Translations under genes and position numbers: made by a program
The notes under the pieces: model-generated
Databases searched by the model: none
The model's input: only the letters and a program-made list of their open reading frames with translations
What the model was told of the DNA's origin: nothing
Shown: piece after piece, positions 20,981-26,743 of the stretch
How positions within the stretch are numbered: position 1 is the stretch's first letter
How the letters are laid out: each line of letters opens with the position of its first letter
Virus record (IMG/VR): IMGVR_UViG_3300031972_001405
Coordinates: 1-64,000 of that record
DNA from: a virus
Strand: one strand, 5' to 3'
DNA: 64,000 nt

Positions 20981-21648
20981 CCAAAAGTAGAATCGGGTTC
21001 TAGTGCAATAAAGTAACGGAGGTCATGATCCTTAGAAGTAAAGCAAGCAAGAAGTTTCTTAGAGATCTTAACCTCATAAGTTCCAGGAACTACGCGGATG
21101 TTCTCAACCTTGAAGTTAAAAGAAAACTCATCATTAGATTCAGCAACTACCACAGAATAGACATTGGAAGTGTCATTCTTTTTGTCGCGGACAATGAGTT
21201 TGACTACTCCATTTTCACCAATGACAGAGAGATCAGGTAATTGATACACTGCTGCTGCCTTAAGAACTTTTTCAAGTTGAGCAGTGGTCAGATCAAAAGC
21301 AACATCAACACTAGGAAGAGTCAGGGTTTGGTCTGGGGGAGCAATAATAACAGTGGGATCAGCAAAGAAATACTTGGAATGATTTTTACCTTCCCGAATG
21401 AATACATAAGAATCATTCTTGAAATCTAGGTCAGCATCACGATGTAAAGACAGACCGTTCAGGAACTGATTGAGATCATAGATACCAAAGTCCTTAGGAA
21501 ACTCCTCGGTGATAGTTGCCTCAGCCAAGATGTTTTTCATTACTGACATCGTGCGAAGTTGACTTCCTTGCTTGAAAAGAAGCGACTGATTAATTGAAGA
21601 GAAGTTCTTCAACAGGTTGAGAGTTTTGTCAGAGAGTTTCATTGTCAT
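20977..21648 (-). CDS. gp45: Sliding clamp, T4 gp45-like
   Basis: A 223-residue PCNA-type clamp subunit: KLSDKTLNLLKNFSSINQSL at the start, the inter-domain region with FDLTTAQLEKVLKAAAV near 120, and VVPGTYEVKISKKLLACF near the end. Three copies form the ring that holds gp43 on DNA. In T4 the same clamp also activates late promoters through gp55 and gp33, linking it to the TATAAATA boxes in this window. Length is close to T4 gp45 (228 aa). Two in-frame ATGs are possible (21648 with ATGA, 21642). Confidence 0.94.
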   Translation of the reverse strand: MTMKLSDKTLNLLKNFSSINQSLLFKQGSQLRTMSVMKNILAEATITEEFPKDFGIYDLNQFLNGLSLHRDADLDFKNDSYVFIREGKNHSKYFFADPTVIIAPPDQTLTLPSVDVAFDLTTAQLEKVLKAAAVYQLPDLSVIGENGVVKLIVRDKKNDTSNVYSVVVAESNDEFSFNFKVENIRVVPGTYEVKISKKLLACFTSKDHDLRYFIALEPDSTFG

Positions 21649-22058
21649 TGAGGGTAGATTTCACGGTTAGCGTTTTTGTCATTGAAATGCATTAGAAGCA
21701 CAGCATAATGCAGAATCTTCATAATGTCACGACGGGCGGTGCCTTTCTTGTCATATCGAGAGGCATACTTGAGAATGTTGGATCGGCAGAATGCTTCACC
21801 ATCACCACAAGCTTCGATAAGATCAAGGGTTTGAATCCTATCATCACCAGCAGAATAATGCTGATTATAAGTTCCAGAGATGTAATCTCTGAGCTCCTTG
21901 AGGATTTTTTCCTCGTTGTACTTAAGACGTTTGCCTTCATTGAAGGTTATTACATCGTCATTATTAAGGGTTATTCTATCGTCATTCTTATCTGGTGGAA
22001 TCCAGAAACCTTCCCCACTCATTTCGTAACCTTCGTTGATCAGTTCATCATAGTTCAT
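21645..22058 (-). CDS. DUF3310-like protein
   Basis: A 137-residue protein. The N-terminal third is polar. The C-terminal part contains DDRIQTLDLIEACGDGEAFC followed by RSNILKYASRYDKKGTARRD and IMKILHYAVLLMHF. This resembles the DUF3310 pattern of a short helix with D-x-I-E, a coupled N-x-x-K-Y-x-x-R and a final amphipathic helix. The family is frequent in phages and is sometimes fused to nucleotide kinases. No catalytic role is known. The ATG at 22058 lies just after the CobS-like stop. Confidence 0.8.
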   Translation of the reverse strand: MNYDELINEGYEMSGEGFWIPPDKNDDRITLNNDDVITFNEGKRLKYNEEKILKELRDYISGTYNQHYSAGDDRIQTLDLIEACGDGEAFCRSNILKYASRYDKKGTARRDIMKILHYAVLLMHFNDKNANREIYPQ

Positions 22059-22062
22059 TGTA

Positions 22063-23148
22063 TCAAAACTCCGTAGTGTTGTCAATAGTGTCAATAGTGT
22101 CAGTGTCAACATCAGCATCAATCTTAGCATAAAGATCGGTGAATGCACTCTTGGTTTCTTCATCGAAACGATTGAGACAGACTTGAATTGCTTTCAGTTT
22201 GTCACCCCAGATAGCATATGCACGAGTGATGTGAACTAGGCGACGGGTACTGATCACCTCATCGACACCACCATCATAGAAAGTCTTGCGGATGATGTCT
22301 GCCCAGTCAGCAAGACGCTTGCAGAAGTTCTCATCGTCACAAACTTTGGTGAGAATTTTAGTCTCAACAGCGACAGTAGGATACTCCTGCTCAAAGGTCA
22401 CAGGAAAACGCTCAAGGAATGCTTCATTCATAACATTGGTGCCGATGAAGCGACCATCCTCAGAACCTTTACCCTTGGTATTAGCAGTGGCAAAGATTTG
22501 AAAACCAGATGTTGGTTGAACATATGCCCCAGTCTTCTTCAAGAACACCCCCTTACCTTCAAGGATTGATTGAAGACAAAGGATTTTATTGGAGGCTAGG
22601 TCAATCTCATCAAGGAGCAAGATTGCTCCACGCTGGAGTGCTTCGATGACTGGTCCATTGTGCCATACAGTAGCACCATTCACAAGACGAAACCCGCCGA
22701 TAAGATCGTCTTCATCAGTTTCAATAGTAATGTTTACACGGATGAGTTCACGTCCAAGTTGAGCACATGCTTGCTCCACACCAAGAGTCTTGCCATTACC
22801 AGAAAGACCAGTAATGAATACAGGGTAGAACATATTAGACTTAACAATACGTTTTACATCAGCAAAGTTGCCGAATGGAACGAAGTTCTCATCCTTTGCA
22901 GGAATAAGATTCTGCTGAACTACAGGCATAGCAGCAGGTGCTTGATAGTTACGTTCAATTTCTTCCACTTTACGTTGAGTTACTTCCAGATTCCATTTGC
23001 CGCGACCAACCTTATATTGCTCAAGTCGTTTGGTAATAGTCTGATATGCAACATCATGAGAGGCACAAAATCCACGGATGTCTGCAGCCGTAAACTCAGA
23101 ACCATAGAGACTGCGAAGTTCTTCGATGTAGTTCACTTGAGAAGGCAT
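22063..23148 (-). CDS. cobS: CobS-like AAA+ ATPase (MoxR type)
   Basis: A 361-residue protein. The N-terminal 60 residues (YGSEFTAADIRGFCASHDV) resemble the CobS N-terminal domain. An AAA+ module follows, with Walker A GLSGNGKT (about 112-119), Walker B ILLLDEIDLAS (about 173), FQIFATANTKGKG (sensor 1) and ERFPVTFEQEYP. Cyanophages are known to carry this gene under the name cobS, the ATPase subunit of aerobic cobalt chelatase. The neighbouring VWA protein matches CobT, so the two would form an AAA+/VWA machine. The substrate in phage infection is uncertain. The ATG at 23148 is used; an upstream reading would not start with ATG. Confidence 0.9.
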   Translation of the reverse strand: MPSQVNYIEELRSLYGSEFTAADIRGFCASHDVAYQTITKRLEQYKVGRGKWNLEVTQRKVEEIERNYQAPAAMPVVQQNLIPAKDENFVPFGNFADVKRIVKSNMFYPVFITGLSGNGKTLGVEQACAQLGRELIRVNITIETDEDDLIGGFRLVNGATVWHNGPVIEALQRGAILLLDEIDLASNKILCLQSILEGKGVFLKKTGAYVQPTSGFQIFATANTKGKGSEDGRFIGTNVMNEAFLERFPVTFEQEYPTVAVETKILTKVCDDENFCKRLADWADIIRKTFYDGGVDEVISTRRLVHITRAYAIWGDKLKAIQVCLNRFDEETKSAFTDLYAKIDADVDTDTIDTIDNTTEF

Positions 23149-23183
23149 TTGGTTGATCCGTTTGGTATGTATATACAATACAC

Positions 23184-23207
23184 TAAAAAACCGCCCCGTG
23201 GGGCGGT
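23184..23207 (-). terminator. Strong intrinsic terminator after the HNH gene
   Basis: CCGCCCC (minus strand from 23206) pairs perfectly with GGGGCGG across a minimal loop and is followed by TTTTTT. It lies 11 bases after the HNH stop and 36 bases before the CobS-like start, so cobS expression needs read-through or its own promoter, which I could not identify clearly. Confidence 0.9.
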
Positions 23208-23217
23208 AGTGGACAGT

Positions 23218-23697
23218 TTATAAACTGGCCTTTCTATGAACATTGTTCTCCTTCGGAGTCACGTATCTGAGGTTATCGATATTGTTATTGGATGGATCAC
23301 CATCAATATGGTCAATCACCACAGTGTCGCGCACCCATTGCTTTGCTTCCTCAGGAAGAGTGTTCCAGACTTCCTTGAGTGCCTCTGGAGGATACTGATC
23401 GACAGGCTTCCATGCTTCCATCACTGCCTTGTGGACAGTAATATTCATCACAGATTTAGTACCACCCTTGGATCTAACGTGATCAAAGTCTTCAAACAAT
23501 TCTGGACTAATGACAACGGTGAAGTTGCATTCATCCAAGCGGCCGCGCTTACTATACTTGTAACGCCAGGATTTAAATTTATTACGAAAAGTGGTGTAGA
23601 TATCTCCACACCTATTCACATAATAACCAGGAATAGTAATACTATATCGAGTGAGAGCTCTCCACTCTGAATTGGATTCAATGCTAGTAATGATCAT
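23218..23697 (-). CDS. HNH homing endonuclease, free-standing
   Basis: A 159-residue protein. The N-terminal part (EWRALTRYSITIPGYYVNRC followed by GDIYTT) resembles a NUMOD4-type DNA-binding motif. The C-terminal part has VVIDHIDGDPSNNNIDNLRY followed by VTPKENN, a classic HNH core with the catalytic His and the closing Asn-x-x-Asn-Leu. Such genes are mobile and spread by cutting unoccupied sites. It sits between the VWA gene and the CobS-like gene and carries its own terminator, consistent with insertion into what is otherwise one operon. Base composition looks similar to its surroundings. Confidence 0.9.
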   Translation of the reverse strand: MIITSIESNSEWRALTRYSITIPGYYVNRCGDIYTTFRNKFKSWRYKYSKRGRLDECNFTVVISPELFEDFDHVRSKGGTKSVMNITVHKAVMEAWKPVDQYPPEALKEVWNTLPEEAKQWVRDTVVIDHIDGDPSNNNIDNLRYVTPKENNVHRKASL

Positions 23698-23718
23698 AAT
23701 TTTTTAGATTAAAGTAGA

Positions 23719-25887
23719 TTATGCAATTTGATCTACGAAGTCGTTAAGAATTTTACGATTCATAGAACTTGCTTTAAGTGATTTTTTGAATGCACTGCGA
23801 ATCTGAGATTTGCTAGCAGCATCAGGAACAACGAACTCACTGTCATCGTTCAGTTTATTGGAAGCAAGAATGAATAGTCTGGAGAAACCCAAGGCAGTCA
23901 GGGAAAGACTACGTTCTTTCTTCCAAGTTCTTCTCATCTTTTCATCTTCAGACCCCCGAAGATCAAAGCTATTAAGCATTCGAGAGACATCAGAGTTAGT
24001 AACAATCCGAACACCAATGAAGTTAACTGAGGGATTTTCGTCTGCGATACACCGTAGAAATCCTTGTGTCTGAGTCCACCAGTTACCAACATCGTAGGAA
24101 CCACCAGTCTTACGATTACGAAGGATCGTACCGTAGCGACAAGCGTTCATACCAATTCTATCACCAATTTGCACAGTTCGCACAGATCCTTGTGCTTCTC
24201 CATCAGTCAGAATAACACACTGCACCTTTTGAACGCCAGTTTTTGATTTGAATTGAGGAATAATCTTCCTGAGACAAGCGATTGCCTCGTTGAGAGGAGT
24301 GCCAGATAGTGAGAAGGCATTACAAATATTATAGTGCCATCTGTAACCGCGACGACCTTGACCATCTTGATGCCATGCCAAGCGATAAAGATTTTCACAA
24401 TCCCTTTCAAAGTCCTTTGACTTTGCAGTGCTACTCAAGACATTCAACAAATGGAATTCTCTAGGAATAGCAATCTTATTCTCTTCATCTTCATGATGAA
24501 ACCTAAGGTGTGAATTTAATTCATTCTCACGAATTTCCTCAGGAACATATCGGAGATGAAAATCATTGGTGAAAGCATACACATCAAAAGGAATGTTGAC
24601 TTTCTTACAGAATCGAACCAGATTCAAGAGTTGTTTGGTCGTATCTACAAGTTTATCGCTCATAGAACCAGACCAATCAAGAAGAAAGATTAGACCATGA
24701 TTTTTACCGTCAGGAACAGTGGTAATTTTCTTGAATAGATCTTCATTGTACTTATATGTGTGAAGCTTAGAGCAATCTAAGACACCAGTGCGAGCAATAG
24801 TAGACCGCGAATAAGCATCAGCAGACTTACGACACTCAAACTCTTTAACCATGTAACTCACTTCTTTAGAAGAAGACTTCTTATGAGCATTATACTCAGA
24901 AGTTACAGTAGTGAAATCAAATTCACAATTCTCGGGAGGATTACTCCACCAGAATTCATTGATTTTGCGAATATAGTCATTACCTATCATGATGGTGTCA
25001 AGATCCATGTCAGGAAACTCAACATACACTGGGTCTCTACCATCTCTTGCAACATTAAGATCCTGAACAGATTCGCTTAGGTTAGTTTCAGTCTTAACTT
25101 CTAGGGGATTTACAGGATTGTAATGACTACCACCCCCAGAAGGCATAGTAGTAGAAACGGAATCTTCAGAAACAACATCAGAATCAGAGTCGTCAGTCTG
25201 AGAAGAATTACCAGGAGTGGAATCCATAGAGGACTCAGAAGAACCAGAGTCAGAGCTAGAAGAACTTTGTTGCGACGAACTTTGCGGAACGCTTTCTTCA
25301 TTCTTTTGGAGATTTTTTTCAAGAGTTTGTTCATACTGTTGCTGACGTTGGCAATATTCATAAAGATTTTCAGAGACAATTAAGACATCAGCAAAAGTTT
25401 CGCATTCGGAAATTTGATTGATCAGATCCATCTCTTCCCCACTCTTAATGGGGATGTCAGAAAAATTGCCAATCTTGAAGTGCAGATTAGCACGATCAGC
25501 AAGATTCATGCTATCAAGATCTTCTTCATCAATACCAAAGAAATCCTGGTCACTCAGATCACTATACCCCCGATAGAAGGTTTTGGCAAGACCTGCATAC
25601 TTTCTCTTCATCAGTTTCTCGATGCGAGCATCTTCAACTACATTGATGAATTGGAAAGGAATATTTCTTGGGGGATCTTCATTAGGAGTGAAGAGAGCAT
25701 GTCCGACTTCATGTGCGACCAGAAGATCATACACGATGTTAGAAGCACGTTGCCACATCGGAAGGACCAACAATCGGTTATTAACATCGAAGGATGCTGT
25801 GTCAACATGCTTGTTTTCAACGATGAGATTCTCAGTCGCTAGCAGTTTGGCGAGTTGACCTTTGACCTCATAGTTGACGATTGCCAT
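23719..25887 (-). CDS. CobT-like protein: zinc metallopeptidase plus VWA domain
   Basis: A 722-residue protein. VAHEVGHALF (HExxH at 59-63), followed by NVVEDARIEKLMKR (about 83-96, supplying a third acidic ligand), is the layout of a zincin-type metallopeptidase. Residues about 195-265 are a Ser/Asp-rich low-complexity linker. The C-terminal half is a von Willebrand A domain with a full MIDAS: DWSGSMS (near 408), SGTPLNEA (near 530) and LTDGE (near 562). This resembles CobT, the partner of the CobS ATPase, but with a complete protease-like centre. A promoter with repeats lies just upstream. It may act as a metal chelatase subunit or as a protein-remodelling protease; sequence alone cannot decide. 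Confidence 0.85.
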   Translation of the reverse strand: MAIVNYEVKGQLAKLLATENLIVENKHVDTASFDVNNRLLVLPMWQRASNIVYDLLVAHEVGHALFTPNEDPPRNIPFQFINVVEDARIEKLMKRKYAGLAKTFYRGYSDLSDQDFFGIDEEDLDSMNLADRANLHFKIGNFSDIPIKSGEEMDLINQISECETFADVLIVSENLYEYCQRQQQYEQTLEKNLQKNEESVPQSSSQQSSSSSDSGSSESSMDSTPGNSSQTDDSDSDVVSEDSVSTTMPSGGGSHYNPVNPLEVKTETNLSESVQDLNVARDGRDPVYVEFPDMDLDTIMIGNDYIRKINEFWWSNPPENCEFDFTTVTSEYNAHKKSSSKEVSYMVKEFECRKSADAYSRSTIARTGVLDCSKLHTYKYNEDLFKKITTVPDGKNHGLIFLLDWSGSMSDKLVDTTKQLLNLVRFCKKVNIPFDVYAFTNDFHLRYVPEEIRENELNSHLRFHHEDEENKIAIPREFHLLNVLSSTAKSKDFERDCENLYRLAWHQDGQGRRGYRWHYNICNAFSLSGTPLNEAIACLRKIIPQFKSKTGVQKVQCVILTDGEAQGSVRTVQIGDRIGMNACRYGTILRNRKTGGSYDVGNWWTQTQGFLRCIADENPSVNFIGVRIVTNSDVSRMLNSFDLRGSEDEKMRRTWKKERSLSLTALGFSRLFILASNKLNDDSEFVVPDAASKSQIRSAFKKSLKASSMNRKILNDFVDQIA

Positions 25888-25972: not shown

Positions 25973-26743
25973 TCAGGAACGATGCTCGTCGTTCAAATCA
26001 TTGATGAACCTGATCAAAGAACTGTCAGAGAACTGCATGAACTCGTAGTTGTCCTTATCTAAGCAGTGGCCTCCCCATCCAAACTTACCATCCCATCCAG
26101 GAACTTGAGTGTGTGATCTGCCGATCCTAGGATCAGAACCAACTAATGCAGCAAACGCTTCATAGGATGATTCGCACCCAAGATTTTTATGGATTTTATA
26201 CAGTTCATTAAAGTAACTGACCTTTAAACCTAGGAAGAAGTTCTCTGCATACTTTACTAGGGCGGCAGTTTTAATATCTGTGGTATAGATCTTACCAGCA
26301 TTCAACTTGTCCAGTCTGGTCCAGAAGATATCAGCAATAACTTCACATGCAGTTTCGTCACCACCGATAATACAGAAAGTTTGATTCTGAAACTTCTCAA
26401 TATTGTTATTAGAACTCAGATACTCTGGACTATGGACAATTTTGATGTTCTGATATGTATCCTCAGCCCATGAATAAAAGTTAGGTGTTGCAGTTGACTT
26501 ACAACATACAGGGGTCTTCTGTCCAATGTATGTGTTTAGTTCATCCAAGACTGGTTTGATAATCTTAGTGTTATCTTCCTTGGGAGTATCGACGCAAACA
26601 AAGACGGCATTAAATTCTTGCCCAGTAAAATCTTTGATCTTATTACTATTAATCTTTGGATCAATAATAACTTTTTCTTCATCAGTGAAGATAGATGCCA
26701 CGGCAGAACCAACGTAACCATGACCGACAATCATTACTTTCAT
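25973..26743 (-). CDS. UDP-glucose/GDP-mannose dehydrogenase-like protein, C-terminally short
   Basis: A 256-residue protein. The NAD-binding Rossmann motif GHGYVGSAVA lies at the start, VFVCVDTP near 49, KSTATP near 82, HSPEYLSSNN near 104, and FGWGGHCLDKDN near 232 with the catalytic Cys of nucleotide-sugar dehydrogenases (GGxCxxKD). The family normally has about 400 residues. Here the protein stops about 20 residues after the catalytic loop, so the C-terminal nucleotide-sugar-binding domain is missing. It could use another substrate or pair with a separate domain. It overlaps gp46 by 4 bases and is probably co-expressed with the recombination genes. Confidence 0.85.
   Translation of the reverse strand: MKVMIVGHGYVGSAVASIFTDEEKVIIDPKINSNKIKDFTGQEFNAVFVCVDTPKEDNTKIIKPVLDELNTYIGQKTPVCCKSTATPNFYSWAEDTYQNIKIVHSPEYLSSNNNIEKFQNQTFCIIGGDETACEVIADIFWTRLDKLNAGKIYTTDIKTAALVKYAENFFLGLKVSYFNELYKIHKNLGCESSYEAFAALVGSDPRIGRSHTQVPGWDGKFGWGGHCLDKDNYEFMQFSDSSLIRFINDLNDEHRS

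Follow-up and report, generated by a model that had tools for sequence, protein, structure and literature searches.

The window analysed here is a stretch of 64,000 nucleotides from the 87-kb IMG/VR virus record IMGVR_UViG_3300031972_001405 and belongs to a T4-like (Kyanoviridae-type) phage. Between positions 22063 and 25887 its minus strand encodes a CobT-like VWA protein and a CobS-like AAA+ ATPase of the MoxR type. A sequence-only reading of this interval had placed both open reading frames (ORFs) here, and both are present. Its treatment of the interval as a two-gene pair holds for the two partners; an unrelated HNH endonuclease gene also lies inside, giving a transcription order of VWA protein, HNH endonuclease and ATPase. 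The VWA protein (23719..25887, 722 residues from an ATG start, minus strand like all features of the interval) matches phrog_459, 'peptidase', with 824 bits. It comprises a predicted gluzincin-like N-terminal domain, a disordered acidic and serine-rich linker (approximately residues 198–259), a helical region and a C-terminal VWA/MIDAS domain. The N-terminal domain (residues 1–190; 25318..25887) has a predicted metallopeptidase fold and contains HEVGH (residues 59–63; 25699..25713), with two predicted metal-binding histidines and a catalytic glutamate, followed by NVVEDARIE (residues 82–90; 25618..25644), where E85 is predicted to supply the third metal ligand. A full MIDAS is provided by DWSGSMS (residues 404–410; 24658..24678), SGTPLNEA (residues 528–535; 24283..24306) and LTDGE (residues 560–564; 24196..24210). 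The ATPase (22063..23178) has 371 residues counted from TTG, with an in-frame ATG at codon 11 as the likelier start. It matches AAA_5 (PF07728, 64 bits) and phrog_249 (456 bits), and carries Walker A GLSGNGKT (residues 124–131 of the listed ORF; 22786..22809) and Walker B LLLDE (residues 187–191; 22606..22620). Among solved structures, its sequence relatives are midasin, CobS, NorQ and CbbQ. Across 59 relatives, 155 of its residues show conservation of 98% or more.

Shuffling the VWA protein produces HExxH in 2% of cases, a chance rate that makes a single copy weak evidence and leaves conservation to decide. Seventy-six complete VWA proteins were collected from viral contigs with search peptides that excluded the motif, and 40 of these form a non-redundant set with mutual identity below 90% and a mean identity of 46%. 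H59, E60, H63, N82, E85, D86, R88 and E90 are identical in 40/40 members of this set, as are the MIDAS residues D404, S406, S408, T530 and D562, among 98 invariant residues altogether. The metal-site residues are also invariant in 54/54 relatives. Such invariance of HExxH is not chance. In a wider set that includes pelagiphages and an Ochrobactrum phage, H59, E60, H63 and E85 are still invariant and E90 becomes aspartate. E90 was rejected as the third zinc ligand for this reason; because E85 is kept where E90 is replaced, E85 is the likelier candidate and, judged from the alignments, likely the third ligand, in line with the suggestion that NVVEDARIE can supply it.

Structure prediction is consistent with this assignment. 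The full-length AlphaFold2 model of the VWA protein, built with 54 sequences, has a predicted local distance difference test score (pLDDT) of 80.5 and shows the linker as disordered. Residues 1–190 modelled separately reach a pLDDT of 92.3 and a predicted template modelling score of 0.88, with three strands followed by a helix carrying HEVGH (residues 50–66) and a second carrying E85 (residues 78–96). Gluzincins share this order of strands, HExxH helix and glutamate helix. The predicted fold is thus gluzincin-like, and places HExxH and E85 on successive helices. The domain recurs in phage proteins of a viral structure library (E 1e-18 to 7e-4, identity down to 16%); several of these are named cobalamin biosynthesis or VWFA, and SprT-like and PolyVal metallopeptidases stand lower in the list. 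Sequence searches of solved structures with the phage alignment or the N-terminal stretch alone gave no relevant match, and the solved bacterial CobT N-domain (21vu, 9uka) is not among the fold matches listed for the N-terminal model. Membership of the DUF2201_N putative metallopeptidases (PF13203) was rejected, the window VWA protein giving no match even at E≤10 and one pelagiphage only a match below the cut-off.

True CobT differs at precisely this site. Thirty-two alphaproteobacterial CobT sequences were compared in an alignment with CobT from Roseobacter phage CRP-810; this phage protein retains HEAGH, and its partner ATPase falls with bacterial CobS in the ATPase tree (support 98/95). The alignment is gap-free over the site, with the anchoring R, G and D present in 32/32. 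The HExxH columns of the bacterial proteins read [AS]xAL[RK], and neither histidine nor the catalytic glutamate is kept in any (0/32): the first histidine is replaced by A, S, G, Q or M, the glutamate almost always by a hydrophobic residue, and the second histidine column, with H in 0/32, is mostly R or K. The third-ligand glutamate is kept in 31/32. That the HHDxxxH of bacterial CobT might be a shifted HExxH was ruled out, as alignment with CRP-810 (RGxxD-HEAGH-xxxxD) puts HHD downstream. The cobaltochelatase lineage has thus lost the catalytic centre that phages have retained, and true CobT is probably a derived form without the site.

An intact site extends well beyond the cyanophages. It is found in Salmonella phage SSU5 (HEVAH/NALED), Rhizobium phage RHph_N1_10 (HEVGH/NIIED), Tsukamurella phage TIN2 (HEIGH/CMED), Ochrobactrum phage OC (HESAH/NVCED) and the pelagiphages HTVC008M and Mosig. 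Vibrio phage ICP2 also counts among these, with HECYH and D in place of E. Separately, the ICP2 CobT-like protein has matches in 2252 records of a plasmid collection (Escherichia, Klebsiella, Salmonella, Enterobacter and others); on an A. baumannii plasmid taken as an example, a MoxR ATPase adjoins a CobT-like protein without HExxH. On the ATPase tree the presence and absence of the site requires four changes, and an ancestral site with several losses is compatible with this tree, which is weak and has long branches. Outside phages and plasmids, two Chloroflexota contigs (L112, 2659-5756; L113, 1744-4991) encode an AAA_5 ATPase followed by a VWA protein with HEVGHAL.T...LED.R.E, and hhalign aligns one of these proteins to the phage profile at E 2e-9. 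That HExxH is a relic or coincidence that binds no metal finds an argument in the shuffle rate alone; invariance over all relatives examined, the helix–helix layout and the reappearance of the motif in Chloroflexota and remote phage families make this explanation highly improbable.

At 75/81 loci with a VWA gene the ATPase gene is adjacent on the same strand, with a median gap of 61 bp, and at the other 6/81 the contig ends at or shortly past the VWA gene. In all 75/75 paired loci a Walker A/B ATPase adjoins a MIDAS-bearing VWA gene, the arrangement of a MoxR AAA+/VWA pair. Across a phage collection the VWA/ATPase counts by record name are 365/365 for Synechococcus, 61/61 for Cyanophage and 24/24 for Prochlorococcus, and the two-gene pair is found in nearly all marine T4-like phages. 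The cluster-C cyanophage S-CREM2 is reported without cobS (PMC10665884). The full pair is present in its genome (OR473000.1), together at another place and annotated as 'ribosome assembly protein' and 'MoxR-like ATPase', so that the pair has moved as a unit. Its neighbours in T4-like cyanophages are gp46/47 and gp45/44. DNA ligase and DNA polymerase III alpha take this place in SSU5, Nickievirus and Rhizobium phages, as do primase, helicase and polymerase in ICP2. The pair thus adjoins replication genes in unrelated phages.

Our preferred reading, to which we give a probability of roughly one half, is that the two proteins form an AAA+/VWA remodelling machine, equipped with a zinc-peptidase domain and directed at a replication-phase protein. 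The peptidase domain is probably active. The ATPase would assemble into a ring, dock its partner's VWA (MIDAS) domain and use ATP to turn or pull it, as NorQ does with NorD. The N-terminal domain, carried on its flexible linker, would hold zinc via H59, H63 and E85, with E60 as general base, and would cut or trim a protein bound and loosened by the ring and MIDAS. The target would most likely be a phage or host protein of the replication phase of infection.

Several observations weigh against this reading. While 18/20 of the nearest PDB folds to the N-terminal domain are HExxH metallopeptidases (among them selecase, abylysin, jannalysin, ArdC, M61 aminopeptidase, Wss1 and IrrE/PprI), the best Foldseek match has E 0.17 and a probability of 0.92, and none lies below E 0.001. 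Because Foldseek also scores amino-acid letters, HExxH itself may draw these matches. In addition, Pseudomonas phage Nican01 and the A. baumannii plasmid retain the pair with HExxH gone, so the site is dispensable in some versions. These two cases favour a pure remodelling chaperone, in which the N-terminal domain would be a structural or docking element (zinc-bound or an old fold) that does not cut, and the VWA domain, rotated with ATP as in NorQD, would for example open a metalloprotein or replication complex. The best solved-structure match of the VWA half, NorD in the NorQ complex (9qhe), and the ATPase matches to midasin modules, CobS and NorQ fit the same explanation. However, every marine relative and most of the distant phage ones keep the catalytic glutamate of HExxH, whereas a structural zinc site has no need of it, and bacterial CobT, with the function gone, has lost all three HExxH residues together. 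We consider a chaperone without proteolysis unlikely, yet the most serious competitor. Finally, CobN-family genes are present in one Synechococcus and one Prochlorococcus genome. Because cyanobacterial hosts have such genes, a cyanophage pair could in principle chelate cobalt via host CobN.

As an aerobic cobaltochelatase module working with host CobN, the pair could instead boost cobalamin or pseudocobalamin, for example for ribonucleotide reductase. Such a role is the published proposal for viral CobST, in which host CobN is hijacked and the 'peptidase' label of phage CobT is called a mistake (Liu et al. 2021, PMC8651126). Besides the CobN-family genes of the cyanobacterial genomes checked, the proposal can draw on reports that cyanobacteria lack cobS/cobT (PMC9227772) and that some cyanophages have other B12 genes (PMC10665884), and on homology: the ATPase scores 66.8 bits on TIGR01650, and the EDARIE segment connects the VWA protein to CobT. 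That ATPase score is set against a cut-off of 558.6, and the VWA protein has no match at E≤1 to TIGR01651 (cut-off 759 bits), on which a Sphingomonas CobT control scores 838.8; the pair therefore fails both cobaltochelatase equivalog models. On the CobT N-terminal family PF06213 the VWA protein reaches 10.5 bits against a cut-off of 26.1. No CobN was found in the 8 phage records searched. An E. coli K-12 phage carries a CobT-like gene and the E. coli control genome has no CobN; pairs with an intact site also occur in phages of SAR11, hosts reported to be without B12 synthesis (PMC8552899, PMC9296465). The metallopeptidase site is, moreover, kept exactly where true CobT lost it. Taken together, these results leave cobalt chelation improbable as the function of the phage pair. 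Even in bacteria the link is loose: among 96 alphaproteobacterial genomes, 33/74 that bear CobT have no detectable CobN, several of them of 3–5 Mb, although some may be incomplete. The association of CobT with CobN is significant (Fisher p 1.5e-4) but far from complete, and the Caulobacter control has CobT with no CobN detected. Bacterial CobST may often serve something other than cobalt chelation. Strict conservation of the site, the predicted gluzincin-like fold, its loss from CobT and hosts without CobN or B12 synthesis make a protein target for the pair more likely than a corrin. The proposal of a protease or remodelling machine acting on protein is in this way partly supported, and the CobN-family genes of cyanobacterial hosts count against it.

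The remaining genes of the locus are those of a T4-like cyanophage. The window runs gp43, RegA/gp62-like genes, gp44, gp45, CobS, CobT-like, gp46, gp47, gp55, UvsW and gp23, the same order as in S-PM2 and similar phages. The HNH endonuclease gene (23218..23697; 159 residues; PF13392, 42.5 bits) lies between the two partner genes, where most relatives have only the short median gap, and is likely a mobile insertion outside the two-gene system. Between gp46 and the VWA gene stands a UDP-glucose/GDP-mannose dehydrogenase-like gene (25973-26743, minus strand, 256 residues) with the N-terminal and central domains only. On the other side, a DUF3310 protein (21645-22163, minus strand) has a listed ORF start that lies approximately 100 bp inside the 3' end of the ATPase gene. 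Neither window protein of the pair matches the known anti-phage defence families in PADLOC, and the open literature checked held nothing on the expression timing or virion content of the VWA gene.

Phage cobST and the 'peptidase' label in databases are already known. Relatives of the VWA protein occur in 463 records of the phage collection and are mostly called 'peptidase', not CobT, in public records. The assumption that phage genes of this kind are known as CobS/CobT is accordingly right for CobS, the CobT part being already catalogued otherwise. What is new is the evidence that 'peptidase', called mistaken in 2021, is probably the better label and that true CobT is the derived form; the usual 'B12 gene' label of the pair is probably wrong. 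Marine T4-like cyanophages carry cobS as a core gene. It serves as a community marker, ocean surveys count it as an auxiliary metabolic gene of B12 synthesis, and its function is acknowledged to be unknown (PMC9983427, PMC3037559). Should the pair be an ATP-driven protease or remodeller, much ecological inference on phage-boosted cobalamin would fall. A core step of one of Earth's most abundant phage groups would also become directly testable by point mutants (E60, H59, H63, E85 and D404), and descent of CobT from an ancestor with a metallopeptidase would account for a puzzling domain. More broadly, and only tentatively, marine-phage 'cobS' may be unrelated to B12 and may with its partner form a hitherto unrecognised AAA+-driven metalloprotease of the replication phase, CobT having descended, like other MoxR–VWA partners, by loss of the catalytic site.

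Among known systems, the cobaltochelatase CobS/CobT (TIGR01650/TIGR01651; PDB 9uka, 21vu) shares the two-gene AAA+/VWA layout, a MIDAS VWA domain and an N-terminal E..R.E helix motif with the phage pair, and homology is detectable. It differs in having [AS]xAL[RK] where the phage protein has HExxH, and the phages are without CobN. NorQ/NorD, a MoxR AAA+ with a VWA partner (PMC9976466, PMC13036017), shares the order of N-terminal domain, flexible linker and VWA domain; the phage VWA part matches NorD best and the phage ATPase matches NorQ. The target differs, and the N-terminal region of a NorD-like protein from a norQ-linked locus shows no HExxH. Homology of that region to the phage domain was rejected for want of a significant profile match. 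The minigluzincins abylysin, jannalysin and selecase are the nearest solved folds to the phage domain and likewise place an HExxH helix before a glutamate helix, although the phage domain exceeds them in size and is joined to a VWA domain, and the E-values are non-significant. The VWA protein's own family is phrog_459 'peptidase', equivalent to the T4-like cyanophage cluster T4-GC 146 (S-PM2p122); in the records examined, no mechanism, partner or site analysis accompanies the 'peptidase' label. The Chloroflexota pairs are cellular and otherwise distant in sequence, yet they combine an adjoining MoxR-like ATPase, HEVGHAL.T, [AM]LED.R.E and a VWA domain just as the phage pair does.

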